From Phreatobacter aquaticus (GTDB lineage Bacteria; Pseudomonadota; Alphaproteobacteria; Rhizobiales; Phreatobacteraceae): DNA of 64,000 nt. The notes under the pieces are model-generated. The model searched no databases. It was given only the letters and a program-made list of their open reading frames with translations, and was not told the origin of the DNA. Positions 37,861 to 58,125 of the stretch are shown here, piece by piece. The stretch covers positions 3,000,828-3,064,827 of the forward strand of contig NZ_CP039865.1 of NCBI RefSeq assembly GCF_005160265.1. Direction: 5' to 3'. Every line of letters begins with the position of its first letter. The stretch's first letter is position 1. The position numbers and the translations under genes were made by a program.

Positions 37861-37879
37861 GATGTAAGGATTGAAGACC

Positions 37880-40800: not shown

Positions 40801-41599
40801 GGACCGCCGCAAGGGCTATACCCAGAAGGCGGTGGTCGGTGGCCACAAGGTCTATCTGCGCACCGGCGAATATGACGATGGCCGGATCGGCGAGATCTTC
40901 ATCGACATGCACAAGGAGGGCGCGGCGCTTCGTTCGCTCCTCAACAACTTCGCCATCGCCATCTCGCTGGGTCTCCAGTACGGCGTGCCGCTGGACGAAT
41001 ATGTCGAGGCCTTCACCTTCACCCGCTTCGAGCCCGCGGGCCCGGTGCAGGGCAACGACACGATCAAATACGCGACTTCGATCCTCGACTACGTGTTCCG
41101 TGAGCTCGCGGTGAGCTATCTCGGCCGCGCCGATCTCGGCCATGTCGATCCCGGCGAGAGCCGTTACGACGCGCTGGGAACCGGTGCCACTGAAGGCGCG
41201 CGCAGCGTGCTGTCCAAGGGCTTGGTGCGCGGCAAGACCGACAAGTTTACGGTCGTCACCAGCCAGGGCGGGCAGGGTACTCCCGCCACGCTGACGCCGG
41301 GCTCGCTCGCCAATGACGGCCGCACCACCGGTACGGTCGTCACCATGGCGCGCACCTCTGGCGCCAATGCGCTGAAGGAAGAGGTCGCGGCAGCGGTTGC
41401 CCCGACACTCGGCGTGCTGTTCGACCAGGCGCCAGCCCCGGAAGTGAAGTCGGAACGCTCGACCTCCGACCGGCGCGCGGAAGCCAAGCTCCGCGGCTAT
41501 GTCGGCGATGCCTGCCCGGAATGCTCGAACTTCACGATGGTGCGGAACGGCACGTGCTTGAAGTGCGACACGTGTGGCTCGACGACGGGGTGTTCGTGA
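37880..41599 (+). CDS. nrdJ: Vitamin B12-dependent (class II) ribonucleotide reductase
   Basis: 1239-residue adenosylcobalamin-dependent reductase that makes deoxyribonucleotides with or without oxygen. Active-site elements are visible: [11 protein letters not shown] (first redox cysteine), [18 protein letters not shown] (thiyl-radical cysteine loop) and [20 protein letters not shown]. The C-terminus is a zinc-ribbon-like [18 protein letters not shown] plus [10 protein letters not shown] with the reducing cysteines. Length of about 1240 is typical for rhizobial NrdJ. Start is ATG 37880, with AAGGA nine bases upstream; a TTG at 37871 abuts that site and is not a usable start. Upstream lie NrdR-like boxes and a structured leader. 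A strong terminator follows. Confidence 0.97.
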
Positions 41600-42225: not shown

Positions 42226-42915
42226 CTACCTCGCCCGGAGCACCGCCAGGAAATACCCGTTATGCCAGTCGCTGTTCTCGCCGATATGCTGCTGCGGGTG
42301 GCTGTTGTCCTGAGTGGTGCGGATCTCGATCCCATAGGTGATGGCGCGGCCGAGCTGGGTGATCGCATCGATCGTGCCCTGTCGCACTTCCGGCCAGTTC
42401 CAGTCATCGACGATCTGGATATATTCCGCGTCCACCGCCGGTTGGGCGATGGTCACGCCGTCGAACTGGTCCTGATAGGCGTGCGGCCCGTCGAACAGAT
42501 AGATGTTGTACTTGCCGATGTCAGAATAGTTGACGTTGCGGAAGTCGTCCTCGATGAATCGGAAGGTTACATCGTCGGAGCGGGCCATGTCGGTATGGGC
42601 CATGAACTGGTCCTTCGGCCCGCCGAATTCCGACCAGTTGTCGATGCAGGTCGCGGTCACGCGGTTGCCCGAGATCGCCGAGCAGGCGGTGGAGCCAGCC
42701 CAGGAGCCGACCTCGAGGTAACGCGCGTCCGGAACCAGGCCGACCAGCGTATTGACGAGCCGGCGATACTTGCGCCCCGACATGCCCTGCATGCCGAGGA
42801 TCCAGTCGGGCACCTTGGTCTTCAGGGCCAGCGCGTCGCGGAAGGCGCGGTCGAGGCTGAACGAGAGGAGGGTGTCGGCGGCATTGCCATAGAAGGCGTA
42901 GGATGTCTCTTCCAC
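42226..42915 (-). CDS. Class I SAM-dependent methyltransferase (Methyltransf_24-like)
   Basis: About 229 residues from GTG 42915. The SAM-binding motif I reads RYLEVGSWAGSTACSA (near residue 70), followed by VTATCIDNWSEFGGP, an acidic strand end, and NIYLFDGPHAYQDQFDGV with a DGxH metal-type motif. VDDWNWPEVRQGT continues the family pattern seen in macrocin- or sugar O-methyltransferase-like proteins. The open frame continues upstream to 43530, but that part runs antisense across 43050-43349 and does not look like protein. The gene lies near the giant repeat gene and a sugar-nucleotide/GT41 cluster, so a sugar or glycan acceptor is possible; this is inference. Confidence 0.75.
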   Translation of the reverse strand: MEETSYAFYGNAADTLLSFSLDRAFRDALALKTKVPDWILGMQGMSGRKYRRLVNTLVGLVPDARYLEVGSWAGSTACSAISGNRVTATCIDNWSEFGGPKDQFMAHTDMARSDDVTFRFIEDDFRNVNYSDIGKYNIYLFDGPHAYQDQFDGVTIAQPAVDAEYIQIVDDWNWPEVRQGTIDAITQLGRAITYGIEIRTTQDNSHPQQHIGENSDWHNGYFLAVLRAR

Positions 42916-43049
42916 TGGGGCTCTCGGTGCGGCGCGCGCGGGATTCCGCGGAGCGCCACAATGAGCGGCCAGCTTGCGCGGGCGCAACCCGGCGAGGTCC
43001 GAAACAGACCGATACACACAGATTTGGCGGGAAAGAAGCGCCGATCGTG

Positions 43050-43349
43050 TCAGGCTGCGGCGCGCACGGCCTTCACAACGGCCTGGACGGCCTCGACAGG
43101 GCCCTTGATGGCGCCCTGGTGCAGAACGGCGAAATAACGCGAGGAGCCGGTGCCGGCGATCGGCGAGATCCAGGCATAGGCCTTGGTGGCGCTGGCATGG
43201 CCGGTCACCGCGAAGACATGCACGACGCCGTCCCACAGGCCGGGCCGGGGCGCGAAGCGATGCGTCGAGACCGAATGCAGATAGGCACTGCTTCCGCCAT
43301 GCTGCGTGTCGATGACCTTTTTGAGCAGGTCCATTGTCGCCGGATTCAT
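43050..43349 (-). CDS. 99-residue protein of unknown function
   Basis: Soluble-looking protein with a normal composition (MNPATMDLLKKVIDTQHGGS..., WDGVVHVFAVTGHASATKAY, SSRYFAVLHQGAIKGPVEAV). Alternating hydrophobic patterns suggest a mixed alpha/beta fold ending in a helix rich in Val and Ala. No signal peptide or catalytic motif is recognised. It is divergent from the giant gene across a 427-base gap and lies 134 bases upstream of the methyltransferase on the same strand. Confidence 0.65.
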   Translation of the reverse strand: MNPATMDLLKKVIDTQHGGSSAYLHSVSTHRFAPRPGLWDGVVHVFAVTGHASATKAYAWISPIAGTGSSRYFAVLHQGAIKGPVEAVQAVVKAVRAAA

Positions 43350-43776
43350 CTATGCGCCTCGTCCTGAGGATCGGGCATTTCTTGCCCCCCTCGACGACCC
43401 TAGGCGGCAATCGTTTGGGAAGCGTTAAGCATGGAAATCGAGCGGCGGCGACGCGCGGCTGGCGCAGCCCTGCCGGGCATTCCGAATTCCTGTGCTCAAA
43501 TGTAACGGGGCGTATCCGGGCCTGTTGCAATGGCTTGCAGAATCGCAGCTATATCCGCATCGGTAAAGTAGAACCCGCATCATGGGTTCTTTGGGGCAGC
43601 ACGCAATTCTTTAAGGGACCATGGCGGCGGCTTGGATCTGAGTGTCGAGTGCCTGACGGTAGTCGGGTAGACATAAGGTTCCGGCCAGTTCGGACGGACA
43701 TAGCAAAATCCGGTTCGACGCCTCCGGCACCAGGGATTGTGGGCCGTGCAGCGGTGGCTGCATCTGGAGGGTGGAC
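43350..43776. other. Regulatory gap ahead of the giant repeat gene
   Basis: No gene is supported in these 427 bases. AGAACCC (43570-43576) and GGGTTCT (43584-43590) form a perfect 7-base inverted repeat with a 7-base loop, a candidate operator or leader hairpin. TTGCAA (43525-43530) and TATATC (43550-43555) could be promoter elements, though their 19-base spacing is long. GGAGG at 43766-43770 is the ribosome-binding site of the giant gene. Confidence 0.45.
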
Positions 43777-46700
43777 ATGGCGATTTCGAATATTAGCGTC
43801 ACGCAGATTGCTGCGCTGTCGACCACGGCCATCTCCTCTCTCTCGATCACCGACATCCAGGGCCTCAGCGCCACCCAGATCGGGGCGATCAGCACCAGCG
43901 GCATCGCGGTGTTGAGCGAAACCCAGGTCGCGGCGCTCAATACCACGCAGGTCAAGGGGCTCACGGCCACCCAGGTGCCCAACCTGAAGCCTTCCCTGCT
44001 CCTCGCGGTCTCCCAGCTGGTGGCCCTCTCCAGCCAGCAGGTCGCAGCCTTCACCGAGACCCAGCTCGACATCTTCGACACCACCCACATCGCCGCCCTC
44101 AGCCGCGCCCAGGTCTCTGCCCTCAGCACCACCAAGATCAACTCCTTCGAGGCGACCCAGGTCGGCGCGCTCAGCTCCACACAGCTCGGCGGCCTCAGCA
44201 CCGACCAGCTGAACGCACTGACGGCGGACGGCCTCGCCGCCATCTCGGTTGCCCAGGCCGCAGGCCTCGGCGCCACGCAGGTCGCGGGCCTGACCACCAC
44301 CTCGTTCAATGCGCTGTCGACGACCACCATTGCCGGCCTGTCGACCACCCAGGCGCGCACCATCACCACCACCCAGCTCTCGGGCCTTGATGAGACGGCC
44401 GTCACCGGTCTGACCTCGACCCAGCTCGGTAGCCTCGCCACCACCCAGCTGCGCGCCCTCTCGTCGACCAATCTGAGCGGTCTGTCGCAGACCCAGATCT
44501 CCGGCCTGTCGTCGACCCAGATCGGCAGTCTCACCACCACCCAGGTCGCCGGCCTCGCGACCAGCGATATCGACGAACTGACCTCGACCCAGGTTCGCGG
44601 CCTCACCTCCACGCAGATCGGGGCACTTGGCTCGTCGAACCTCAACGAACTGACCTCGACCCAGCTGTCCGGCCTGTCGTCGGCGCAGGTCGCCGGCATC
44701 ACGGCAACCCAGCTTGGCGGCCTTGATGCCACCAACATCGCCGACTTTGCGGCGACCCAGCTGACCGGCCTGTCGACCACGCAGCTGAATGCCCTGTCGA
44801 CGGACGCCCTTGGTGGCCTGTCCCGCACGCAGGCGGCTGGCCTCGCCGTCACGCAGGTGTCCGGCCTGAGCACGACCTCACTCAATTCGCTGACCTCGAC
44901 CGCAGTCGGCGGCCTGACCACGACCCAGGCGCGTGCGCTGACCACGACCCAGCTTGCCGGCCTCAATGAAACCGCCGTCTCCGGTCTCACCTCGACCCAG
45001 CTCGGCAGCCTTGCGACCACGCAGCTGCGGGCCCTGACCGAGACCAATATCAGCGGTCTGACGCAGACCCAGGTGTCGGGCCTGACCTCGACCCAGGTCG
45101 GCGGATTGACGACCACCCAGATCGCCGGCCTGTCGACCTCCGACATTGATGAACTGACCTCGACCCAGGTCCGCGGCCTGACCTCCACGCAGGTCGGTGC
45201 GCTCGGTTCGACCAATCTGAACCAGCTGACCTCGACCCAGCTTTCTGGCCTGACCTCGACCCAGGTCTCCGGCCTCTCGACAACCCAGCTCAGCGGTCTG
45301 GATTCGACCAACATCGCCGATTTCGCCGCGACCCAGCTGACCGGCCTGTCGACCACCCAGCTGAACGGCCTGGCGACGGATGCTCTTGGAGGCCTTTCCT
45401 CCACTCAGGCGGCCGCGCTGACCACGCCCCAGATTGCCGGTCTGACCACGACCTCGCTCAATTCCCTGACCTCGACGGCGGTTGGTGGCCTGACCACGAC
45501 CCAGGCTCGCGGTCTGACCACCACGCAGCTTGCCGGCCTGAACGAGACGGCCGTGTCGGGTCTGACCTCGACCCAGCTGGGCAGCCTGTCGACGACGCAG
45601 CTGCGGTCGCTGACCGAAACCAATATCAGCGGCCTGACGCAGACCCAGGTCGGCGGCTTGAGTTCAACCCAGGTCGGTGGCCTGACCACCACGCAGATCG
45701 CCGGTCTCGCCACGGGCGACATTGATGAACTGACCTCGACCCAGTTGCGCGGCCTCACCTCCACGCAGGTTGGCGCGCTCGGCTCGACCAATCTGAACCA
45801 GCTGACCTCGACCCAGCTCTCGGGCCTGACCTCGACCCAGGTTGCCGGCCTCAATGCCACCCAGCTCGGTGGCCTGGATTCCACCAATATCGCCGACTTC
45901 GCGGCGACCCAGCTGACCGGTCTGTCGACCACCCAGCTGAATGGCCTCTCGACCGACGCGCTCGGCGGTGTCTCAACCACCCAGGCCGCCGCCCTGTCGG
46001 TGGCCCAGGTCGCCGGCCTGACCACGACCTCGCTCAATGCACTGACATCGACGGCGGTTGGTGGTCTGACCACGACCCAGGCGCGCGCGCTGACGACCAC
46101 GCAGCTCGCTGGCCTCAGCGAGACCGCCGTGTCGGGTCTGACCTCGACGCAGATCGGCAGCTTGAGCAATACCCAGGTCGCCGCGCTCTCCTCCACCAAT
46201 ATCAGCGGGCTGACGCAGACCCAGTCATCCGGCCTGACCTCGACCCAGGTCGGTGGTCTGACCACCACGCAGGTCGCCGGCCTCTCCACCACCGACGTCA
46301 GCGATCTGACCTCGACCCAGGTGCGCGGCCTGACCTCCACGCAGGTTGGCGCGCTCGGCTCGTCGAATCTCAATCAGCTCACCTCCACCCAGCTGTCCGG
46401 GCTGACTTCGACCCAGGTCGCCGGTCTGAACGCCACCGAACTCGGCGGACTTGACGCGACCAACATCGCTGACTTCGCGGCGACCCAGCTCACGGGTCTG
46501 TCGACGACACAGCTGAATGCCCTGTCCACCGATGCCCTGGGCGGCCTCTCGACCACCCAGGCCGCCGCTCTGTCGGTGGCCCAGGTCGCCGGCCTGACCA
46601 CGACCTCGCTCAACGCCCTGAGTTCGACCGCGGTTGGTGGCCTGACGACGACCCAGGCGCGTGGCCTGACCACGACGCAGCTCGCCGGCCTGAACGAAAC

Positions 46701-49700
46701 GGCCGTGTCGGGCCTGACCTCGACGCAGCTTGGCAGCCTGACCAACACGCAGGTCGCGGCGCTCTCCTCCACCAATGTCAGTGGCCTGACCTCGACGCAG
46801 GTGTCCGGTCTGACCTCGACCCAGGCGGGCGGTCTCACCACCACGCAGATCGCCGGTCTCGCCACTGGCGACATCGACGAACTGACCTCGACGCAACTGC
46901 GCGGCCTGAGTTCCACGCAGGTTGGCGCGCTCGGCTCGACCAATCTGAACCAGCTGACCTCGACGCAGCTCTCCGGCTTGACGTCCACTCAGGTCTCCGG
47001 CCTGACCGCGACGCAGCTCAGCGGCCTTGACGCGACCAATATCACCGACTTCGCTGCAACCCAGCTGACCGGTCTCTCGACCACCCAGCTGAACGGCCTC
47101 TCGACCGATGCGCTGGGTGGCTTGACCACCACGCAGGCGGCGGCCCTGACCACCGGCCAGGTGGCTGGCCTTACGACGACGTCGCTGAACGCCCTGACCT
47201 CGACAGCCGTCGGTGGACTGACGACGACCCAGGCCCGCAGTCTGACCACCACGCAGGTGGCTGGCCTCAACGAGACCTCGGTTTCCGGCCTCACCTCGAC
47301 CCAGCTCGGCAGCCTGTCGACGACCCAGCTGCGCTCGCTCACCGCGACCAATCTCAGCGGCCTGACCCAGACCCAGGCATCCGGCCTGACCTCGACGCAG
47401 GTCGGTGGCCTGACCACCACGCAGATCGCCGGTCTCGCCACCACCGATATCGACGAACTGACCTCTACCCAGGTCCGTGGCCTGACCTCCACCCAGGTCG
47501 GCGCACTCGGCTCCTCCAACCTCAACGAACTGACGTCGACCCAGCTGTCCGGACTGACCTCCACGCAGGTCTCAGGTCTGAACGCGACGCAGCTCAGCGG
47601 CCTTGACGCGACCAATGTCGCGGACTTCGCCGCCACCCAGCTGACCGGCCTCTCGACCACCCAGCTGAACGGCCTCTCGACCGACGCGCTCGGTGGCCTC
47701 TCGACGACGCAGGCCTCGGCACTGACCACGTCGCAGGTGGCTGGTCTCACGACCACCTCGCTGAACGCGCTCACCTCGACCGCCGTCGGCGGCCTGACGA
47801 CGACCCAGGCCCGCAGCCTGACGACGACCCAGCTTGCCGGCCTCAACGAGACGGCCGTGTCGGGTCTGACCTCGACCCAGCTTGGCAGCCTGAGCAACGC
47901 CCAGGTCGCCGCGCTCTCCTCGACCAATATCAGCGGCCTGACGCAGACCCAGTCGTCCGGCCTGACCTCGACCCAGGTCGGTGGTCTGACCACGACCCAG
48001 GTCGCAGGGCTCTCCACCACCGATGTCAGCGAGCTGACCTCGACCCAGGTCCGTGGCCTGACCTCGACTCAGGTCGGCGCACTCGGTTCCTCGAACCTCA
48101 ACGAACTGACCTCGACCCAGCTCTCGGGCCTGACCTCGACCCAGGTCTCCGGGCTGTCGGCGACGCAGCTGAGCGGTCTCGACACGACCAACATCGCGGA
48201 CTTCGCGGCAACCCAGCTGACCGGTCTGTCGACGACGCAGTTGAACGGGCTGTCGACCGACGCACTCGGCGGCCTGTCCTCCACTCAGGCGGCAGCGCTG
48301 ACCACGCCTCAGGTGGCTGGTCTCACCACCACCTCGCTCAACGCCCTCACCTCGACCGCCGTCGGTGGCCTGACCACGACACAGGCCCGCGCTCTGACGA
48401 CCACGCAGCTCGCTGGTCTCAATGAGACGGCGGTGTCGGGCCTGACCTCGACCCAGCTTGGCAGCCTGACCAACACGCAGATCGGGGCCCTTTCCTCCAC
48501 CAATGTCAGCGGGCTGACGCAGACCCAGGTCTCCGGTCTCTCGTCGACCCAGCTCGGTGGCCTGACCACGACGCAGGTCTCTGGCCTCGCCACCACCGAC
48601 ATCGGTGAACTGACCTCGACCCAGGTGCGTGGCCTGTCCTCGACCCAGGTCGGCGCACTCGGTTCCTCCAACCTCAACGAACTGACCTCGACCCAGCTGT
48701 CGGGCCTGACCTCGACCCAGGTCTCCGGCCTGTCGACGACGCAGCTGAGCGGTCTCGACACCACCAACATCGCGGACTTCGCGGCAACCCAGCTGACCGG
48801 CCTTTCGACCACCCAGCTGAACGGCCTCTCGACCGACGCACTCAGCGGCCTGTCCTCCACTCAGGCGGCAGCGCTGACCACGCCACAGGTGGCTGGTCTG
48901 ACCACCACCTCGCTCAACGCGCTCACCTCGACCGCCGTCGGCGGCCTGACGACGACCCAGGCCCGCAGCCTGACGACGACCCAGCTTGCCGGCCTCAACG
49001 AGACGGCCGTGTCTGGTCTGACCTCGACCCAGCTTGGCAGCCTGAGCAACACGCAGGTCGCCGCGCTCTCCTCCACCAATGTCAGCGGGCTGACGCAGAC
49101 CCAGGTCTCCGGTCTCTCGTCGACCCAGCTCGGTGGCCTGACCACGACGCAGGTCTCTGGCCTCGCCACGACCGATATCGGCGAACTGACCTCGACCCAG
49201 GTGCGCGGCCTGACCTCGACCCAGATCGGTGCGCTCGGTTCCTCGAACCTCAACGAGCTGACCTCGACGCAGCTCTCCGGCCTGACCTCGACCCAGGTCT
49301 CCGGCCTGTCGGCGACGCAGCTGGGCGGTCTCGACACCACCAATATTGCGGACTTCGCGGCAACCCAGCTGACCGGTCTGTCGACCACCCAGCTGAATGC
49401 CATCTCGGCGGACGCACTCGGCGGCCTGTCCTCCACTCAGGCGGCAGCGCTGGCCACGACGCAGGTCGCTGGTCTGACCACCACATCGCTGAACACGCTC
49501 ACCTCGACCGCCGTCGGTGGCCTGACCACGACACAGGCTCGCGCTCTGACGACCACGCAGCTCGCTGGTCTCAACGAGACGGCCGTGTCCGGCCTGACCT
49601 CGACCCAGCTGGGCAGCCTGAGCAATACCCAGGTCGCCGCGCTCTCCTCCACCAATGTCAGCGGGCTGACGCAGACCCAGGTCTCCGGTCTCTCGTCGAC

Positions 49701-52700
49701 TCAGCTCGGTGGGCTGACCACGACGCAGGTCTCTGGCCTCGCCACGACCGATATCGACGAACTGACCTCGACACAGGCCCGTGGCCTGACCTCCACGCAG
49801 GTAGGGGCACTCGGTTCGACCAATCTCAACCAGCTGACCTCGACGCAGCTCTCCGGCCTGACCTCGACCCAGGTCTCCGGCCTGACCGCGACGCAGCTGA
49901 GCGGCCTTGACGCGACCAATATCGCCGACTTCGCGGCAACCCAGCTGACCGGTCTCTCGACCACGCAGCTGAATGGCTTGTCGACAGATGCGCTCGCAGG
50001 CTTGACCACGACGCAGGCGGCGGCCCTCACCACCGGCCAGGTTGCCGGCCTCACGACGACGTCGCTGAACGCCCTGACCTCGACAGCCGTCGGTGGTCTG
50101 ACGACGACGCAGGCCCGCAGCCTGACCACCACCCAGGTGGCCGGCCTCAACGAGACATCGGTTTCCGGCCTGACCTCGACCCAGCTCGGCAGCCTCTCGA
50201 CGACCCAGCTGCGCTCGCTCACAGAGACGAATGTGAGTGCCCTGACACAGACCCAGGTGTCCGGCCTCTCGTCGACGCAGGTTGGCGGCCTGACCACCAC
50301 GCAGATCGCTGGTCTCGCCACGACCGACATCGACGAGTTGACCTCGACGCAGGTTCGCGGCCTGACCTCGACCCAGGTCGGCGCGCTCGGCTCCTCCAAC
50401 CTCAACGAGCTGACCTCGACGCAGCTCTCCGGTCTGACCTCGACGCAGGTTTCGGGCCTCAACGCGACCCAGCTTGGCGGGCTTGATGCCACCAATGTCG
50501 CGGACTTCGCAGCCACCCAGCTGACCGGCCTCTCGACGACCCAGCTCAATGGGCTGTCGACCGACGCCCTTGGCGGCCTGAGCACAACGCAGGCATCTGC
50601 GCTCACCACAACGCAGGTGGCGGGTCTCACGACCACCTCCCTGAACGCCCTGACCTCGACGGCCGTCGGTGGTCTGACGACCACGCAGGCCCGCGCCCTG
50701 ACGACCACCCAGCTTGCCGGTCTCAACGAGACGGCGGTCGCAGGCTTGACCTCGACCCAGCTTGGCAGCCTGAGCAACACCCAGGTCGCTGCGCTGAGCT
50801 CGACCAATGTCAGCGGCCTGACACAGACCCAGGTGTCCGGCCTGAGTTCGACCCAGGTTGGCGGACTGTCGACCACTCAGGTTGGCGGTCTCGCCACTAC
50901 CGATATCGGCGAGTTGACCTCGACCCAGGTCCGGGGCCTGACCTCGACCCAGGTCGGCGCACTCGGCTCCTCGAACCTCAACGAACTGACCTCGACCCAG
51001 CTCTCCGGCCTGACCTCGACGCAGGTCTCGGGTCTCACCGCCACCCAGCTGAGTGGCCTCGACGCAACCAATATCGCCGACTTCGCGGCCACCCAGCTGA
51101 TCGGTCTCTCGACCACGCAGTTGAATGGCCTGTCGACCGACGCACTTGGCGGCCTTTCGACCACCCAGGCCTCGACCCTCTCGGTGACCCAGGTCTCGGG
51201 TCTCACCACCACCGCGCTTAACGCGCTCACGTCCACTGCGGTCGGCGGCCTGACGACGACCCAGGCCCGCGCGCTGACGACGACCCAGCTAGCCGGTCTC
51301 AACGAGACGGCGGTCGCAGGGTTGACCTCGACCCAGCTCGGCAGCCTGAGCAATACCCAGGTTGCGGCGCTGAGCTCGACGAATGTCAGCGGCCTGACGC
51401 AGACCCAGGTTTCGGGCCTCAGCTCGACCCAGGTCGGCGCCTTGACGACGACCCAGGTCGCCGGTCTCGCCACCAGCGACATCGACGAACTGACCTCGAC
51501 GCAGGTTCGTGGCCTGACCTCGACCCAGGTCGGCGCACTCGGCTCGACCAACCTGAACCAGCTGACCTCGACGCAGCTGTCCGGCCTGACCTCCACTCAG
51601 GTCTCCGGGCTGACGACCACCCAGCTTAGCGGCCTCGACGCAACCAACATTGCCGACTTCGCGGCGACCCAGCTGACCGGCCTCTCGACGACCCAGCTGA
51701 ACACGCTCTCGACCGACGCCATCGCTGGTCTGAGCACCACGCAGGCCTCGGCTCTCACCACTACCCAGGTGGCGGGCCTGACGACCACCTCGCTGAACGC
51801 CCTGACCTCCACGGCGATTGGCGGCCTGACGACAACGCAGGCGCGCAGCCTGACGACCACGCAGATCGACGGCCTGACCGAAACCGCGGTCGCTGGATTG
51901 ACCTCGACGCAGATCGGCACACTGACCAACACGCAGGTCGCTGCTCTGAGTTCGACCAATCTGGACAGCCTGACCACGACGCAGGCTGCGGGCCTCACCT
52001 CGACCCAGGTCGGTGGCCTGACGACGACACAGGTCTCCGGTCTGGCGACGACCGATATCGACGAGCTGACCTCCACCCAGCTTCGTGGCCTCAGCTCCAC
52101 GCAGGTTGGCGCCCTTGGCTCCACCAACCTGAACCAGCTGACCTCGACGCAGCTGTCTGGCTTGACCTCCACTCAGGTGAGTGGCCTGACCGCCACGCAG
52201 CTGAGCGGCCTTGATGCGGCCAATGTCGCCGACTTCGCAGCAACGCAGCTGACCGGTCTCTCGACGACGCAGCTCAACGGCCTGTCGACCGATGCGCTTG
52301 GCGGCCTGAGCACCACGCAGGCCTCGGCGCTGACCACCACGCAGGTGGCTGGCCTCACCACGACCTCGCTGAACGCCCTGACCTCCACCGCGGTCGGCGG
52401 CCTGTCGACGACCCAGGCGCGCAGCCTGACGACGACACAGCTCGCCGGTCTCAACGAGACGGCGGTCAGCGGCCTGACCTCGACCCAGCTGGGCAGTCTG
52501 ACCAATACCCAGATCGCCTCGCTGACCTCGACCAATGTCAGCGGCCTGACCTCCACGCAGGTCTCCGGCCTCTCGTCGACCCAGCTCGGTGGGCTGACCA
52601 CGACGCAGGTTTCCGGTCTTGCCACCACCGATATCGGCGAACTGAGTTCCACACAGCTCCGTGGGTTCACCGGCGCACAGATCAGCGCGCTGGGGTCCTC

Positions 52701-53643
52701 GAACTTCAATGAGTTGAGCTCGACCCAGGTCTCGGCCCTCGGCATGACCCAGATCGCGGGCATGTCGACGACCCAGCTCGCCGCTCTGTCGACCGGCGAT
52801 GTCGGGGAGCTGAGTTCCACGCAGCTGCGTGGTCTCTCGGCAACCCAGCTGAACGCGCTGTCGACCGACGCACTCGGCGGCCTTGCGGCAACGCAGGTCG
52901 AGGGTCTGCTGACCGCCCAGGTCAGTGGCTTGAGCACGACCTCGCTGAATACGCTCTCGACAACGGCGCTCGCCGGCCTGACCACCACGCAGGTCAAGAG
53001 CCTGACGACCACCCAGATCGATGGCCTCAACGAGACCGCGCTCGGCGGCCTGACTTCGACACAGGTCGGTGCGCTGCTGACCACTCAGCTGAACGCGCTG
53101 GATACGACAAGCCTGAACGTCCTCACCAGCACGCAGATCGGTGGGCTCTCGACCACGCAGATCTCCAGCCTGACGACGACGCAGCTGTCGTCGCTGACCA
53201 CCACCGATGTCGGCGAGTTCACCTCGACGCAGCTTGGCGGTCTCACCGCGACGCAGATCGGCGGGCTCGGTTCGACCAACTTCAACGAGTTGTCGAGCAC
53301 GCAGCTCTCCGGCCTCAGCTCCACGCAGGTTGGTGGCCTGACGACGACCGAGATCGGCGCCTTGTCCGAAACCAGGATCGGCGAGTTCACGTCGACCCAG
53401 CTGAGGTCGCTGAATGCCACGCAGGTCGGGGCCATCTCCACGACCGCGATCGCCGGCCTGACATCCACCGGTGTGGGGGCCTTGGCATCGACCACCATCG
53501 GCCTGCTGACGACGACCCAGATCGGTTCGCTCGCAGCAACGTCGATCAGTGCGATGACCTCGACCCAGACCGCTGGCTTCACGGACACCCAGATCGGCCA
53601 GTTCACCGAGGATCAGATCCTCGCCTATCTCTCGGTCTCCTGA
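43777..53643 (+). CDS. Giant Ser/Thr/Gln/Leu-rich octapeptide-repeat protein (3288 residues)
   Basis: One unbroken frame of 9.87 kb. Nearly the whole protein is a run of about 410 octapeptides of the type [S/T]-x-T-Q-[L/V/I]-x-[G/A]-L. From residue 205, 24 octads form a 192-residue super-repeat with fixed landmarks in order, among them NETAVSGL, TSDIDEL-type, GSSNLNEL, DATNIADF, STDALGGL and TTTSLNAL, repeated about 15 times. The first 200 and last 340 residues keep the octad rhythm but diverge. There is no Cys or Trp that I can see, almost no Lys, and Phe mainly in the ADF octad. No N-terminal signal peptide or membrane helix; the C-terminus ends QILAYLSVS. ATG 43777 lies six bases after GGAGG. 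Likely a surface or secreted fibrous protein, perhaps exported by type I secretion; structure (solenoid of strands or short helices) is undecided. Confidence 0.9.
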   Translation: MAISNISVTQIAALSTTAISSLSITDIQGLSATQIGAISTSGIAVLSETQVAALNTTQVKGLTATQVPNLKPSLLLAVSQLVALSSQQVAAFTETQLDIFDTTHIAALSRAQVSALSTTKINSFEATQVGALSSTQLGGLSTDQLNALTADGLAAISVAQAAGLGATQVAGLTTTSFNALSTTTIAGLSTTQARTITTTQLSGLDETAVTGLTSTQLGSLATTQLRALSSTNLSGLSQTQISGLSSTQIGSLTTTQVAGLATSDIDELTSTQVRGLTSTQIGALGSSNLNELTSTQLSGLSSAQVAGITATQLGGLDATNIADFAATQLTGLSTTQLNALSTDALGGLSRTQAAGLAVTQVSGLSTTSLNSLTSTAVGGLTTTQARALTTTQLAGLNETAVSGLTSTQLGSLATTQLRALTETNISGLTQTQVSGLTSTQVGGLTTTQIAGLSTSDIDELTSTQVRGLTSTQVGALGSTNLNQLTSTQLSGLTSTQVSGLSTTQLSGLDSTNIADFAATQLTGLSTTQLNGLATDALGGLSSTQAAALTTPQIAGLTTTSLNSLTSTAVGGLTTTQARGLTTTQLAGLNETAVSGLTSTQLGSLSTTQLRSLTETNISGLTQTQVGGLSSTQVGGLTTTQIAGLATGDIDELTSTQLRGLTSTQVGALGSTNLNQLTSTQLSGLTSTQVAGLNATQLGGLDSTNIADFAATQLTGLSTTQLNGLSTDALGGVSTTQAAALSVAQVAGLTTTSLNALTSTAVGGLTTTQARALTTTQLAGLSETAVSGLTSTQIGSLSNTQVAALSSTNISGLTQTQSSGLTSTQVGGLTTTQVAGLSTTDVSDLTSTQVRGLTSTQVGALGSSNLNQLTSTQLSGLTSTQVAGLNATELGGLDATNIADFAATQLTGLSTTQLNALSTDALGGLSTTQAAALSVAQVAGLTTTSLNALSSTAVGGLTTTQARGLTTTQLAGLNETAVSGLTSTQLGSLTNTQVAALSSTNVSGLTSTQVSGLTSTQAGGLTTTQIAGLATGDIDELTSTQLRGLSSTQVGALGSTNLNQLTSTQLSGLTSTQVSGLTATQLSGLDATNITDFAATQLTGLSTTQLNGLSTDALGGLTTTQAAALTTGQVAGLTTTSLNALTSTAVGGLTTTQARSLTTTQVAGLNETSVSGLTSTQLGSLSTTQLRSLTATNLSGLTQTQASGLTSTQVGGLTTTQIAGLATTDIDELTSTQVRGLTSTQVGALGSSNLNELTSTQLSGLTSTQVSGLNATQLSGLDATNVADFAATQLTGLSTTQLNGLSTDALGGLSTTQASALTTSQVAGLTTTSLNALTSTAVGGLTTTQARSLTTTQLAGLNETAVSGLTSTQLGSLSNAQVAALSSTNISGLTQTQSSGLTSTQVGGLTTTQVAGLSTTDVSELTSTQVRGLTSTQVGALGSSNLNELTSTQLSGLTSTQVSGLSATQLSGLDTTNIADFAATQLTGLSTTQLNGLSTDALGGLSSTQAAALTTPQVAGLTTTSLNALTSTAVGGLTTTQARALTTTQLAGLNETAVSGLTSTQLGSLTNTQIGALSSTNVSGLTQTQVSGLSSTQLGGLTTTQVSGLATTDIGELTSTQVRGLSSTQVGALGSSNLNELTSTQLSGLTSTQVSGLSTTQLSGLDTTNIADFAATQLTGLSTTQLNGLSTDALSGLSSTQAAALTTPQVAGLTTTSLNALTSTAVGGLTTTQARSLTTTQLAGLNETAVSGLTSTQLGSLSNTQVAALSSTNVSGLTQTQVSGLSSTQLGGLTTTQVSGLATTDIGELTSTQVRGLTSTQIGALGSSNLNELTSTQLSGLTSTQVSGLSATQLGGLDTTNIADFAATQLTGLSTTQLNAISADALGGLSSTQAAALATTQVAGLTTTSLNTLTSTAVGGLTTTQARALTTTQLAGLNETAVSGLTSTQLGSLSNTQVAALSSTNVSGLTQTQVSGLSSTQLGGLTTTQVSGLATTDIDELTSTQARGLTSTQVGALGSTNLNQLTSTQLSGLTSTQVSGLTATQLSGLDATNIADFAATQLTGLSTTQLNGLSTDALAGLTTTQAAALTTGQVAGLTTTSLNALTSTAVGGLTTTQARSLTTTQVAGLNETSVSGLTSTQLGSLSTTQLRSLTETNVSALTQTQVSGLSSTQVGGLTTTQIAGLATTDIDELTSTQVRGLTSTQVGALGSSNLNELTSTQLSGLTSTQVSGLNATQLGGLDATNVADFAATQLTGLSTTQLNGLSTDALGGLSTTQASALTTTQVAGLTTTSLNALTSTAVGGLTTTQARALTTTQLAGLNETAVAGLTSTQLGSLSNTQVAALSSTNVSGLTQTQVSGLSSTQVGGLSTTQVGGLATTDIGELTSTQVRGLTSTQVGALGSSNLNELTSTQLSGLTSTQVSGLTATQLSGLDATNIADFAATQLIGLSTTQLNGLSTDALGGLSTTQASTLSVTQVSGLTTTALNALTSTAVGGLTTTQARALTTTQLAGLNETAVAGLTSTQLGSLSNTQVAALSSTNVSGLTQTQVSGLSSTQVGALTTTQVAGLATSDIDELTSTQVRGLTSTQVGALGSTNLNQLTSTQLSGLTSTQVSGLTTTQLSGLDATNIADFAATQLTGLSTTQLNTLSTDAIAGLSTTQASALTTTQVAGLTTTSLNALTSTAIGGLTTTQARSLTTTQIDGLTETAVAGLTSTQIGTLTNTQVAALSSTNLDSLTTTQAAGLTSTQVGGLTTTQVSGLATTDIDELTSTQLRGLSSTQVGALGSTNLNQLTSTQLSGLTSTQVSGLTATQLSGLDAANVADFAATQLTGLSTTQLNGLSTDALGGLSTTQASALTTTQVAGLTTTSLNALTSTAVGGLSTTQARSLTTTQLAGLNETAVSGLTSTQLGSLTNTQIASLTSTNVSGLTSTQVSGLSSTQLGGLTTTQVSGLATTDIGELSSTQLRGFTGAQISALGSSNFNELSSTQVSALGMTQIAGMSTTQLAALSTGDVGELSSTQLRGLSATQLNALSTDALGGLAATQVEGLLTAQVSGLSTTSLNTLSTTALAGLTTTQVKSLTTTQIDGLNETALGGLTSTQVGALLTTQLNALDTTSLNVLTSTQIGGLSTTQISSLTTTQLSSLTTTDVGEFTSTQLGGLTATQIGGLGSTNFNELSSTQLSGLSSTQVGGLTTTEIGALSETRIGEFTSTQLRSLNATQVGAISTTAIAGLTSTGVGALASTTIGLLTTTQIGSLAATSISAMTSTQTAGFTDTQIGQFTEDQILAYLSVS
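44389..53028 (+). repeat. Tandem 576-bp super-repeat inside the giant gene (about 15 periods)
   Basis: The codons for the [D/N]ETAV landmark recur at 44389 and every 576 bases after that up to 53029, without a single register slip. Each period encodes 24 octapeptides. Copies are very similar in DNA, but the last period diverges after about 52620. Variant octads are shared between copies five periods apart (near 47110-47350 and 49990-50230, both with TTGQVAGL and NETSVSGL) and three periods apart (46117 and 47845, both with TQTQSSGL). This shows block duplication or gene conversion. Collapse or expansion during assembly is a real risk here. Confidence 0.95.
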
Positions 53644-53750
53644 TCGGGCAGGGCGGGAAGTTCGGAGCAATGCCATATGATGCCAGCGGCCTAGCGGCCG
53701 CCAGCACCATCTGGGTCTCGTCTTGGCGGTGACGTGTCGGTGTGTACGCG

Positions 53751-55778
53751 ATGAGTGGACAGCAACTTCCCGGGCACGAGTCCCTCGCGCTTCCGCAACT
53801 GGTGCACGCCGTCAACCTGTTGACCCAGCAGGGTCAGACAACGGCTGCCTGTCACCTTTATCAGGGCTGGATCGAGGCCAATCCCACCCATCCGCTGCTG
53901 TTCGCGGCCCTGTTCAACCTGTCGGTGATCCAGGGCGATCTTGGCGACGTCACGGGCGGCATCAAGTCGCTGCAACGGGTCATCGAGGTCAATCCCGACT
54001 TTGTCGGCGCCTATATCAACCTCGGCCGTTTCTTCGAGCGGGCTCAGCAGGCCGACAAGGCGCTGCAGATCTGGTACACCGGCATCAACCGGCCGCTGCC
54101 GATGACGGGCCAGTCGGTCATCCACGCCATCACCGCGCTCAAGCAGATCGCCCGCGTCCACATGGATCGCGAGGAGCCGGAACAGGCGGAACAGGCGTTG
54201 TCGCGCTGCCTCGGCCTGTCACCGTCCGAGGATGACGCGCTCGAGCAGTTCCTGGCACTGCGCATGCGGGAATGGCGCCGGCCGGTCCTAACTCAGATCG
54301 AGGCCCTGGACGGCAAGGCAATGCTCAAGCGGTTCCATCCGCTGAGCGTTGCAGCCTTCACCGACGACCCGCTGCTGCAGCTGGCCTCCGCTCACGGCTA
54401 TGTCCGCCGCCTCTTGAACAATAGCGGCCCGCTGCCACGGGAGTCCGATCGCCGCGACGCACCGATCGACCTCAAGGGCCGCCGGATCCGTGTCGGCTAT
54501 CTCTCGTCCGACCTGCGCGACCACGCCATCGGCTATCTGATGGCCGAGTTCCTGGAGCTTCAGGAGCGGGCGGATTTCGAGGTCTTCGCCTATTTCACCG
54601 GTGCTGCGCCGACGTCGGCCATGACCACCCGCATCCAGGATGCGGTCGAGCACTGGGTTGATATCCGCACCCTCGGTGATGACGCCGCCGCTGCCCGTAT
54701 CGCAGCCGACGGCCTCGATATCCTGGTGGACGTGAACGGCCACACGCGGGATGCCCGGCTTGGCGTATTTGCGCGCCGTCCGGCGCCGATCCAGGTCAAC
54801 TGGCTGGGCTTTCCCGGCACGATGGCCAGCTCCTTCCATCATTACGTCATCGCCGACCCCTGGATCATCCCCGAGGGATCCGAGAGCTATTTCTCGGAAA
54901 AGGTGCTGCGTCTGCCGTGCTACCAGCCCAATGATCGCAAGCGCGTGGTGGGCGAGCCGACGACGCGCGCGGAGCGGGGCCTGCCGGACGACAAGTTCGT
55001 CTTCTGCAGCTTCAATGCGCTTCACAAGATCACCGCCTTCACACTCGATCGCTGGATCGCGATCCTCAAGGCGGTGCCGAACAGCGTCATGTGGATGCTC
55101 GACTGCTCGGCGCAGGCGAAGCGCGAGCTTGCGCAGCGGTTCGAGGCGAACGGCATCGAGGCGTCGCGGCTGATCTATGCGCCCAAGCTCGCCAATCCGC
55201 TGCATCTCGCACGCTATCCGCTGGCCGACCTGTTCCTCGACGCCTTGCCCTATGGCGCGCACACCACCGCCTCGGATGCACTGTGGATGGGCGTGCCCGT
55301 GCTGACGCTGTCAGGGCGCAGCTTTGCCTCGCGGGTCTGCGGCAGCCTGGTCCGCTCGGCCGGGCTTCCCGATCTCGTCGTCAACGACCCGCAAGCCTAT
55401 GTCGCGCGCGCCATCGAACTCGCCAATGATCCGGCGGCTCTCGCCGAGATCAAGGCCCGCCTGGCGGCCGGCCGCGACAGCTGCGCGCTGTTCGATCAGG
55501 AGCTGCTGGTCCGCTCCATCGGCGATCTCTACCGCAGCATGATCGCGGACTATCAGGCGGGAACCATGCCCGAGCCTGATCTGCGCAATCTCGAATCCTA
55601 TCTCAATGCCGGCATCGCCCATGACCACGAGGGCGTGGAAATCTCCTGGGTGCCGGACTACGAGGAGGCCTATCGCGTCCGCCTTGCCGAGATTGACCGG
55701 CGCGATCCTCTGGAGGCCGACAGCCGGCTCTGGCCGCACGCGACCTCGCTGCTGCGCCGCTCTGGCGCCAGCCGCTGA
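53751..55778 (+). CDS. TPR-containing GT41 glycosyltransferase (O-GlcNAc transferase/SPINDLY-like)
   Basis: 675 residues from ATG 53751 (GTG 53742 is an alternative). About residues 15-165 form degenerate TPR helices (HLYQGWIEANPTHPLLFAAL, FVGAYINLGRFFERAQQADKAL). The C-terminal GT-B catalytic part belongs to family GT41: RVGYLSSDLRDHAIGYLM with the catalytic-type His at about 258, DILVDVNGHTRDARLGVFA, VNWLGFPGTMASSF, FNALHKITAFTLDRWIAILK, and the nucleotide-sugar loop HTTASDALWMGVPVLTLSGRS. GT41 enzymes transfer a sugar from a UDP (or GDP) donor to Ser/Thr of proteins in the cytoplasm. It lies 107 bases after the giant Ser/Thr-rich gene on the same strand, with no terminator seen between them, so that protein is the obvious candidate acceptor. 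Confidence 0.92.
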   Translation: MSGQQLPGHESLALPQLVHAVNLLTQQGQTTAACHLYQGWIEANPTHPLLFAALFNLSVIQGDLGDVTGGIKSLQRVIEVNPDFVGAYINLGRFFERAQQADKALQIWYTGINRPLPMTGQSVIHAITALKQIARVHMDREEPEQAEQALSRCLGLSPSEDDALEQFLALRMREWRRPVLTQIEALDGKAMLKRFHPLSVAAFTDDPLLQLASAHGYVRRLLNNSGPLPRESDRRDAPIDLKGRRIRVGYLSSDLRDHAIGYLMAEFLELQERADFEVFAYFTGAAPTSAMTTRIQDAVEHWVDIRTLGDDAAAARIAADGLDILVDVNGHTRDARLGVFARRPAPIQVNWLGFPGTMASSFHHYVIADPWIIPEGSESYFSEKVLRLPCYQPNDRKRVVGEPTTRAERGLPDDKFVFCSFNALHKITAFTLDRWIAILKAVPNSVMWMLDCSAQAKRELAQRFEANGIEASRLIYAPKLANPLHLARYPLADLFLDALPYGAHTTASDALWMGVPVLTLSGRSFASRVCGSLVRSAGLPDLVVNDPQAYVARAIELANDPAALAEIKARLAAGRDSCALFDQELLVRSIGDLYRSMIADYQAGTMPEPDLRNLESYLNAGIAHDHEGVEISWVPDYEEAYRVRLAEIDRRDPLEADSRLWPHATSLLRRSGASR

Positions 55779-55784
55779 TCGGGA

Positions 55785-57113
55785 TCAGTTGGCCTTGGTC
55801 GATAGTCCCAGGGCGGAATAGCTGGCAAAACCCGCCTGTTCGGCTTCAGCCGGGCTGAACAGGTTGCGCAGGTCGACCAGGGTCTTGGTGCGCATCCGGC
55901 TGGCAAGTGTTGCGAGATCGTACGACCGGAACACCTTCCACTCGGTCACGACCACCAGAACGTCGGCATCTGCGACCGCGTCCAGCGGATCGGCGACAAG
56001 GCGGACATCGCCGAGCAGCGCCTGGGCATCGCGCGGCTGGGCCGGATCATAGGCATCGACGCTCGCACCCATCGCGATCAGCCGCGGTAGGATGCTGAGG
56101 CTCGGGCTCTCGCGCATGTCGTCGGTCTGGCCCTTGAAAGTGACGCCCAGCACCGCGACCTTCTTGCCCTCGAGGCTGCCGCCGCAGGCCGCCAGCACGC
56201 GGTCGGCCATCGAAGCCTTGCGGGCGTCATTGGCGGCGATCGCGGCACCGATGATGCGGGCGGGTACGCCGGCATCCTGCGCCGTCATTTGGAAAGCCAG
56301 CGTGTCCTTCGGGAAGCATGAGCCACCCCAGCCGGGCCCGACCTTCAGGAACGGCAGGCCGATCCGCTTGTCGAGGCCGATGCCGCGCGCCACCTCCTCG
56401 ATATTGGCGCCAACGGCCTCGCAGAGATCGGAAACCTCGTTGATGAAGCTGAGCTTGGTCGCGAGGAAGCTGTTGGCGGCATATTTGATCATCTCGGCGG
56501 TCTCGATGCCGGTCACCAGCATCGGCACCTCGGCTTCCACCAGCGGCGCGTAGATGCGCTGCATGATGGTGCTGGCGCGCGGGTCCTCGACGCCGATCAC
56601 CACCCGGTCCGGCTCCATGAAGTCGGAGATCGCAGCACCCTCGCGCATGAATTCCGGGTTCGAGGCCACGGCGACGAAATCGGGCGAGGCTGCGACAGCG
56701 CGGGCGAGTTCGGCGACCATGCGGTTGGTGCCGACCGGCACCGTCGACTTGGTGATGATGACCGAGAACTGGCTGAGCGCCCGGCCAATTTCCTCGGCGG
56801 CGCCATGGACCTGGGAGAGGTCGGCGCGCCCGGTCTCCGGATCGCTCGGCGTGCCGACGGCGATATAGATCGCATCGCGATCCCTGCAGCTCTCGGCGAG
56901 GTCGAGGCTGAAGCTCAGGCGCCCGGCCTTCATGTTGCGCTCGACCATGTCCTCGAGGCCGGGCTCGTAAATCGGCACGCGGCCGCTTTCCAGCATGCCG
57001 ATCTTGCGCGCGTCCTTGTCGACGCAGATCACCTCATGGCCGATCTCGGCGAAGCATGTGCCCGTCACGAGCCCGACATAGCCGGTGCCGATCACCGTGA
57101 TCTTGCAACGCAT
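55785..57113 (-). CDS. ugd: UDP-glucose 6-dehydrogenase
   Basis: 442-residue NAD-dependent enzyme oxidising UDP-glucose twice to UDP-glucuronate. The N-terminal Rossmann motif is VIGTGYVGLVTGTCFAEIGH, the catalytic cysteine is in GPGWGGSCFPKDTLAF near residue 265, and the C-terminal domain holds GVTFKGQTDDMRESPS. The family name in rhizobia is often rkpK. It converges with the GT41 gene (6-base gap). The next gene upstream on the same strand encodes a UDP-glucuronate decarboxylase-type enzyme, so the pair would make UDP-GlcA and UDP-xylose. Confidence 0.94.
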   Translation of the reverse strand: MRCKITVIGTGYVGLVTGTCFAEIGHEVICVDKDARKIGMLESGRVPIYEPGLEDMVERNMKAGRLSFSLDLAESCRDRDAIYIAVGTPSDPETGRADLSQVHGAAEEIGRALSQFSVIITKSTVPVGTNRMVAELARAVAASPDFVAVASNPEFMREGAAISDFMEPDRVVIGVEDPRASTIMQRIYAPLVEAEVPMLVTGIETAEMIKYAANSFLATKLSFINEVSDLCEAVGANIEEVARGIGLDKRIGLPFLKVGPGWGGSCFPKDTLAFQMTAQDAGVPARIIGAAIAANDARKASMADRVLAACGGSLEGKKVAVLGVTFKGQTDDMRESPSLSILPRLIAMGASVDAYDPAQPRDAQALLGDVRLVADPLDAVADADVLVVVTEWKVFRSYDLATLASRMRTKTLVDLRNLFSPAEAEQAGFASYSALGLSTKAN

Positions 57114-57180
57114 CAGCTGAACTCCCCGGAATCAGGCGCTACCGCTTGGCTTCGAGCGGTAGGCGCACTTGTCGTCGCGC

Positions 57181-58125
57181 TCATGACGGCCGCGCGAGGC
57201 CGGCGAAATAGGGCAGGCAGCGGGCGAGACCCTCGGCAAGCGGCACCTTGGGGGTCCAGCCGAGCAGGGCCTGGGCACGGGTGATGTCAGGGCAGCGCTG
57301 CTTCGGATCGTCGGTCGGCAGCGGCCGGAAGGCGAGGGGAGACCGTGATCCCGTCAGCTCCAGCACCGCATCGGCGAGTTCCCGGATGGTGAACTCGCCG
57401 GGATTGCCGAGATTGACCGGTCCGTCGATCGGCTGGGCCGAGCGCATCATCCGGAAGAAGCCCTCGACGAGATCGTCGACATAGCAGAACGAGCGCGTCT
57501 GGCTGCCGTCGCCATAGAGTTCGAGCGGCTCCCCGGCCAGTGCCTTCATCAGGAAATTGGATACGACCCGCCCATCCAGCGGGTCCATGCGGGGACCATA
57601 GGTGTTGAAGATGCGGACGACCCGGACATCGGTGCCATAGGTGCGCCGGTAGTCGAAGCATAGCGCCTCGGCGGCCCGCTTGCCCTCATCGTAGCAGGCG
57701 CGGGGACCGGTCGAATTGACATTGCCCCAATAGGCCTCGGTCTGCGGATGGACAGAGGGGTCGCCATAGACCTCGCTGGTGGAGGCCTGGAAGAACCGGG
57801 CGCCATCGCGCCTGGCCCAGGCGAGCATGGCCTCGGTGCCGACCACGTTGATCATCAGCGTGCCGACCGGATCGCGCTGGTAATGCGGCGGCGAGGCGGG
57901 CGAGGCCAGGTTCCAGATCTCGTCGACCCGGCGGTCGGGTTGAAACGTCCGCACATCCGCCTGCACGAAGGTGAAGGCCGGATGGTTCAGCAGCGGCTCG
58001 ATATTGCAGAGCCGGCCGGTCATCAGATTGTCCAGGCAGACGACGGCATGGCCTTCGGCCAGCAACCGGTCGCAGACATGGCTTCCGACAAAGCCGGCGC
58101 CGCCGGTCACCAACGCTGTCCCCAT
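57181..58125 (-). CDS. UDP-glucuronate decarboxylase-type short-chain dehydrogenase (UDP-xylose synthase)
   Basis: 314 residues from ATG 58125 (ATG 58140 is possible). Extended SDR enzyme with [16 protein letters not shown] at the N-terminus, the catalytic region [20 protein letters not shown], and YDEGKRAAE containing the YxxxK pair. The runs [19 protein letters not shown] and [20 protein letters not shown] match UDP-xylose synthases closely. It would decarboxylate UDP-GlcA, made by the adjacent ugd product, to UDP-xylose. A dTDP-glucose 4,6-dehydratase is a less likely alternative given the pairing and motif details. Divergent from the gene at 58396. Confidence 0.88.

Follow-up and report, generated by a model that had tools for sequence, protein, structure and literature searches.

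A giant ALTTAQ octad-repeat protein and a TPR-GT41 glycosyltransferase encoded as a conserved gene pair: a candidate protein-glycosylation system in Phreatobacter aquaticus and its relatives

Introduction

It is already known that some GT41 glycosyltransferases serve a neighbouring or otherwise specific exported protein, and cytoplasmic O-glycosylation dedicated to a particular substrate has been described in few systems. In the HMW1C/HMW1 adhesin system, as described in PMC3983070, a cytoplasmic GT41 enzyme is encoded beside a giant exported protein and adds single simple sugars to it from a UDP-sugar donor. In Caulobacter, FlmG combines TPRs with a GT-B domain, binds its flagellin substrates through the TPR part and O-glycosylates them in the cytoplasm before export, with pseudaminic acid as the sugar, according to PMC7591256. 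Here we analyse a stretch of 64,000 nucleotides, hereafter called the window, from the genome of Phreatobacter aquaticus, a single 4.97-Mb contig (GCF_005160265.1, NZ_CP039865.1, positions 3,000,828 to 3,064,827 of the forward strand). It encodes a giant protein made of octad repeats of the ALTTAQ type, a named Pfam family (PF20080, ALTTAQ_rpt), and directly behind it a TPR-containing GT41 glycosyltransferase. With this pair, an uncharacterised family of giant repeat proteins gains a predicted enzyme, a predicted donor pathway and a predicted fold.

The resemblance of this locus to the described systems is only partial. HMW1C carries an AAD domain instead of TPRs and modifies Asn in a two-partner secretion substrate (PMC3983070), whereas the window GT41 has TPRs, and its neighbour has few N-x-S/T sequons (35 in 3,290 residues) and no two-partner secretion domain among its Pfam matches at E values up to 1. 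The profile of the HMW1C-like N-glycosyltransferases (NF049992) matched the window GT41 at 35 bits, far below its cut-off of 1000. Compared with FlmG, the conserved partner is the ALTTAQ rod instead of flagellins, and the linked sugar gene encodes a UDP-glucuronate decarboxylase (UDP-xylose synthase; UXS). OGT, XcOGT and SPINDLY (SPY) belong to the same family and share the active-site framework; the window GT41 differs from them in having one giant partner, to which it is proposed to be dedicated, and it resembles SPY and XcOGT, but not human OGT, at one donor-site position discussed below. In a word-based literature search with partial coverage, we did not find the ALTTAQ-GT41 tie, the accessory genes described below or the helical stripe of the repeat protein.

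Results and Discussion

The repeat gene and one GT41 clade are linked across genera

The initial annotation of the window proposed a protein O-glycosylation locus in which a dedicated GT41 serves the giant repeat protein, and it suggested asking whether octad-repeat proteins and GT41 genes co-occur across genomes. They do. When the window GT41 was searched in a sample of 397 genomes of the order, a sharp gap separated 14 genomes at E 3.8e-170 or better from the next at 4e-110; we refer to the GT41s above this gap as the clade. All 14 genomes, which represent nine genera and five families, have an ALTTAQ open reading frame (ORF) directly upstream on the same strand (the window; loci L062, L063, L066, L067, L068, L070, L072, L076, L078, L080, L082 and L168; and genome G295, where at L077 the GT41 N-terminus follows the array at the contig end). 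PF20080 at 1e-8 marks 15 of the 397 genomes, and 13 of these are shared with the 14 GT41 genomes (Fisher 1.8e-21, ignoring relatedness). Genome G142 has both the clade GT41 and the array, with a PF20080 match below the cut. The PF20080-positive genome G250 has its octads in a different protein, of 4,152 residues with LysM and SH3 domains. That protein (L073:1663-14121) has octads of the LTPEQIAAL type and weak ADP-ribosyltransferase-like matches (E about 1e-5).

GT41 as a whole family was found in 14 of the 15 PF20080-positive genomes and in 8 of 14 others (29 genomes tried). The linkage with repeats is thus a property of one GT41 clade and not of the GT41 family as a whole. The initial annotation had held that GT41 homologues regularly found without the repeat gene, together with repeat genes regularly found without GT41, would speak against the system; the former is the case for the family, and it does not extend to the clade.

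Among 347 genomes of the class, PF20080 at 1e-9 marks five; the clade GT41 is present in four of these, and all four clade-positive genomes have repeats. In G604 the GT41 gene lies directly behind one array, a second array lies behind the GT41 gene and UXS lies in front. G577 and G672 have 6-7 kb between the array and the GT41 gene (L192, L193), and the block that holds both also contains UXS, another GT41 and a type I exporter. In G543, which lacks the clade GT41, ALTTAQ octads are embedded in a protein with VCBS/cadherin domains (L196:7558-10986).

The same arrangement was seen among the nearest named relatives, found by a scan with a set (A1) of 11 GT41s. We counted all of the best 80 of 582 confirmed loci, misses included; ORFs in the surveyed loci were called with a crude caller, and at least three of the 80 (L143, L151, L157) duplicate order genomes (G282, G381, G267), so that the two counts overlap. 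In 74 of the 80 an ALTTAQ frame directly precedes the GT41 gene on the same strand, and the GT41 match begins 38-328 nt past the end of that frame. The loci include ones from Caulobacter, Phenylobacterium, Hyphomonadaceae, Magnetospirillum, Nitrospirillum, Humitalea, Rhodoplanes and Siculibacillus, and also from metagenome-assembled genomes labelled Deltaproteobacteria or Polyangiaceae. The pair is divergent in L153, L097 and L167 lie at contig ends, and the upstream flanks of L154 and L161 are shorter than 3 kb.

Some loci count against a strict tie. L095 has the GT41 and UXS, but ALTTAQ is absent within 10 kb on either side; G004 has an array, truncated by a contig end, and no clade GT41 in its assembly; and no GT41 was found in the stretches examined around the third array of G604 (L195) and the second array of G577 (L197).

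It could also be argued that the pair is a functionally meaningless neighbourhood, either old or mobile, as its distribution is patchy: within the genus sample PF20080 occurs in 2 of 12 genomes, the GT41 clade only in the window genome, and UXS (at 1e-85) in two. However, the GT41s are just 43-49% identical across the nine genera, five families and other orders, while their other neighbours mostly change, and the pair is kept even when divergent (L153) or 6-7 kb apart (L192, L193). We consider such a meaningless neighbourhood very improbable; it was disfavoured already. Because the two genes stay adjacent in so many bacteria, the GT41 most likely glycosylates the repeat protein before export.

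A clean empty site could not be demonstrated when we compared what lies downstream of the gene at 37871-41599 in eight sister genomes. In six of these stretches no other gene of the window flanks was found, and in two (L174, L176) two such genes lie 12-18 kb away in another order. The gene at 37871-41599 itself (1,242 residues) is 90-91% identical in 10 sister genomes, but what surrounds it varies from species to species; this chromosomal region is therefore rearranged.

Table 1. Positions, in window coordinates, of the genes of the candidate glycosylation locus
Feature	Position	Strand	Basis
Giant ALTTAQ octad-repeat protein, proposed acceptor	43771..53643	+	PF20080, octad statistics, AlphaFold of both ends
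TPR-GT41 glycosyltransferase, proposed dedicated transferase	53742..55778	+	PF13844 269 bits and TPR, OGT-aligned residues (ATG 53751)
Ugd, UDP-glucose dehydrogenase family, proposed UDP-GlcA supply	55785..57113	-	TIGR03026 448 bits, cut-off 190
UXS, UDP-glucuronate decarboxylase (UDP-xylose synthase), proposed donor supply	57181..58125	-	Human UXS1 match, YxxxK
Possible SAM methyltransferase, role in system doubtful	42226..43530	-	PF13578 27.4 bits, cut-off 26.3

The glycosyltransferase keeps residues expected of an active enzyme

The GT41 gene starts 98 (GTG) or 107 (ATG) bases 3' of the repeat gene on the same strand, the latter distance being the one first annotated, and its PF13844 match, which is accompanied by TPR matches (Table 1), places it well within GT41 (cut-off 25). 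In an alignment to OGT and XcOGT, His261, Lys429, His507-Thr-Thr and Asp512 of the window enzyme line up with the OGT residues. Of these, His261, Lys429, Thr508 and Asp512 are invariant in the 11 GT41s of A1, as expected of an active enzyme.

The GT41 may nevertheless leave the rod unmodified, acting elsewhere or serving the rod as a TPR chaperone, the two genes being merely co-expressed. TPR proteins can be chaperones, HMW1C has been suggested to act as one (in PMC3983070), and it counts in favour of this explanation that we deduce modification of the rod from genes. The invariant active-site residues speak against it, and the UXS and FkbM partners described below fit sugar chemistry. We regard this alternative as quite improbable, and modification of the rod by the GT41 as likely.

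In L192 and L193 the clade GT41 stands in tandem with the second GT41 (L192:5811-7682, L193:8333-10186), a distant one (31-33% identical) that has GTV or GTI at the HTT motif. Outside the clade, a GT41 gene of G004, which belongs to the same genus as the window genome, lies directly behind two flagellin genes (L084:4410-9408) and may therefore encode a flagellin glycosyltransferase. The second GT41 of the window genome (L085, 4667665-4668891) is a relative, and no flagellin was called beside it. A GT41 of C. vibrioides (L198) has the same length as FlmG.

The sugar donor

As the initial annotation stated, ugd and a gene of the UDP-xylose-synthase type converge on the GT41 gene. Ugd, which is separated from GT41 by six bases, has a TuaD-like family as its best match. 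It was uninformative as a marker of linkage, with a match at 1e-90 in all 12 genus genomes. The best PDB match of the second protein is human UXS1 (E 4e-107, 362 bits; the next kind 1e-52, 182 bits) and the catalytic motif YxxxK is present as YDEGK, which assigns it to UXS by sequence. Its ORF extends to 58557, a start that is too long, and the matched part begins at about ATG 58125.

UXS was found in 13 of the 14 clade-positive order genomes compared with 152 of 383 others (p 7e-5), G144 being the only clade-positive genome without it. It lies (at 50% identity or more) in the flanks of 17 of the best 80 loci, where 0.13 would be expected, or 0.51 with two copies per genome, and in the order sample it flanks 5 of the 14 pairs, the window included.

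The initial annotation named N-acetylglucosamine (GlcNAc), glucuronic acid (GlcA) or xylose as the sugar. The enrichment of UXS supports a supply of UDP-GlcA and UDP-xylose; the GlcNAc part has fared less well. Tyr504 of the window GT41 aligns with Cys917 (C917) of human OGT, and a Tyr occupies this position in 96 of 96 clade GT41s (94 by pattern and two by eye, duplicates included). In work on SPINDLY, a Tyr at this position is argued to clash with GlcNAc and to set the donor size in GT41 (PMC9715652). The residue therefore argues against GlcNAc as the donor. Since the same Tyr is not confined to the clade but is present in other GT41s too, which tells against reading it as a sign of xylose, it disfavours GlcNAc but does not favour xylose alone.

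It is possible that the GT41 modifies the repeat protein with another donor, such as UDP-glucose (UDP-Glc), UDP-GlcA, GlcNAc or a sugar produced elsewhere, and that ugd and UXS are there for, e.g., a polysaccharide. UXS occurs widely in the order (165 of 397 genomes), is missing in G144 and was not in the flanks of 63 of the best 80 loci, many of which have short flanks, and the known donors of GT41 enzymes are UDP-Glc (HMW1C), GDP-fucose (SPY) and UDP-GlcNAc (OGT), as given in PMC3983070 and PMC9715652. On the other hand, UXS is enriched both in the genomes and near the pair, in several orientations, and the Tyr speaks against the GlcNAc version. We therefore judge another donor somewhat unlikely, and xylose itself remains a tentative assignment, a little short of an even chance.

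The repeat protein is a predicted solenoid with unlike sides

The repeat protein has 3,290 residues from its GTG start, or 3,288 from ATG 43777, the length given in the initial annotation, which had described it as Ser/Thr rich. PF20080 matches it at 1,143 bits (curated cut-off 26.4) in 119 stretches. It consists of 410 octads in a single register with the consensus L-[TS]-[TS]-T-Q-[LVI]-x-[GA], and 265 of its 292 Gln residues fall in the same phase. Ser and Thr make up 1,176 of the 3,290 residues, and Cys, Trp, Tyr and His are all absent. A super-repeat of 24 octads (192 residues) shows about 80% self-identity. No RTX family was present among Pfam matches at E values up to 1, and no signal peptide was evident by eye, the sequence opening straight into repeats. 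The octad detector gave zero matches on 13 control loci (219,879 bases).

AlphaFold2 models of the N-terminal and the C-terminal 360 residues (pLDDT 94.7 and 95.1, pTM 0.84 and 0.85, with 34 and 44 sequences, respectively) predict the same fold at both ends, an alpha-solenoid in which each octad forms one short helix, starting at the N-terminus and without a separate domain. The Ser/Thr at position 2 of the octad sits just ahead of each predicted helix, and therefore part of the Ser/Thr richness is probably structural, as helix capping. This weakens the case for the rod as acceptor: the richness noted initially stands, but it does not by itself imply the hundreds of potential sites that were proposed.

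The spectrum of octad content over 55 arrays, those among 83 listed that passed register and length limits, peaks at 0.292 per octad, i.e., 3.43 octads per turn (24/7). The height of this peak was 6.2 for all positions and 15.9 for position 5, with shuffle maxima of 1.10 and 1.28, respectively. Because super-repeats alone can produce spectral peaks, we split the arrays by super-repeat strength, in an analysis repeated without three duplicates. Both groups showed the same peak. In the 26 arrays lacking a strong super-repeat it reached 19.7 (shuffles at most 2.1), and 16 of these arrays had their own highest peak there; in the 26 with a strong super-repeat it reached 33.9, and 21 of them had their highest peak there. 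The commonest repeat lags (7, 10, 14, 17, 24, 31, 41, 48 and 55 octads) are close to whole numbers of such turns. When the arrays were folded on this period, Asp and Glu clustered on one side and Lys and Arg (position 7) on the opposite side; the Gln contrast in this folding follows by construction from fixing the phases on the non-Gln signal. This suggests, on sequence grounds, a screw-like rod with unlike faces that could pack side by side. An alpha-solenoid rises about 1 nm per turn, and at this rise 410 octads would form a rod roughly 0.1 micrometre long.

The octad profile matched PDB entry 9zem (HeliScrew4) without gaps over 109 residues (E 8.6e-26). HeliScrew4 and PF20080 share the octad pattern, but HeliScrew4 is a chain of 120 residues and the entries state no glycosyltransferase link. 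Leucine-rich-repeat matches of the profile in the PDB were dismissed as composition bias. In a Foldseek search of the predicted solenoid, mesothelin was best (E about 2e-4 to 4e-4). It is likewise a solenoid of short helices, ARM/HEAT-like, but is described in PMC10035497 as a GPI-anchored animal protein with irregular repeats of 27-37 residues; with TM-scores of 0.2-0.4 we take this as resemblance only.

Proposed mechanism and export

We propose that the GT41 would bind the octad rod in the cytoplasm through its TPR domain and transfer single sugars from a UDP-sugar to Ser/Thr of the rod. Ugd and UXS next door would supply the sugar, most likely xylose or another one without an N-acetyl group at C2, and an FkbM enzyme may methylate it in some relatives. 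Type I secretion would then most likely carry the rod out of the cell, to remain on the surface or be released. The gene families, their conserved linkage, the predicted fold and its periodicity are results of computation, from which the modification, its sites, the sugar, the export route and a surface role are deduced. For the two-gene core as a dedicated protein-glycosylation system with such a sugar and such an export route, we see about an even chance. A fuller version, in which the TPR-GT41 xylosylates the helical-screw rod (with methylation in some lineages) and the exported rods use acidic and basic stripes to pack side by side as a glycosylated surface sheet or fibre, is unlikely in this complete form. 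If the proposal is true, such a highly regular acceptor would reveal how a GT41 chooses its sites on a lattice, and it may offer a route to glycosylated rods.

Type I export is slightly favoured as the way out for the rod. In L148, L150 and L155 the array comes immediately after genes for a HlyB-type ABC protein and HlyD; HlyD lies upstream of UXS-GT41 in L154 and L161, and ABC and HlyD genes lie between the GT41 gene and the array in L192 and L193. HlyD passes TIGR01843, and two ABC genes match TIGR01846 best, below its cut-off (584 and 606 vs 726). It does not help this route that the exporter is present in only 3-5 of the best 80 loci and that none was found beside the pair in the window. 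An ABC gene at the start of the window, which clusters with type I exporters, was set aside by eye as a generic ABC transporter.

Methyltransferases and other neighbouring genes

The initial annotation considered that the sugar might be methylated and pointed to the S-adenosylmethionine (SAM) methyltransferase gene upstream. The role of that candidate is doubtful: its marginal PF13578 match covers residues 272-376 of an ORF with TTG as its first codon, and no relatives were found in the flanks of the surveyed GT41 loci. A different methyltransferase, of the FkbM type (PF05050), is present in 18 of the best 80 loci, mostly directly behind the GT41 gene.

No tRNA and no Rfam family at the gathering score was found in the window, and the G+C content over its 34-64 kb part has no strong anomaly. 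In G144 and G295, which belong to one genus, the next gene past the GT41 gene encodes an EF-hand protein (L066:11078-12373, L083:1886-2806), which places calcium binding near the system. Flagellin-like genes occur in the flanks of L104 and L147 and near the array in L081.

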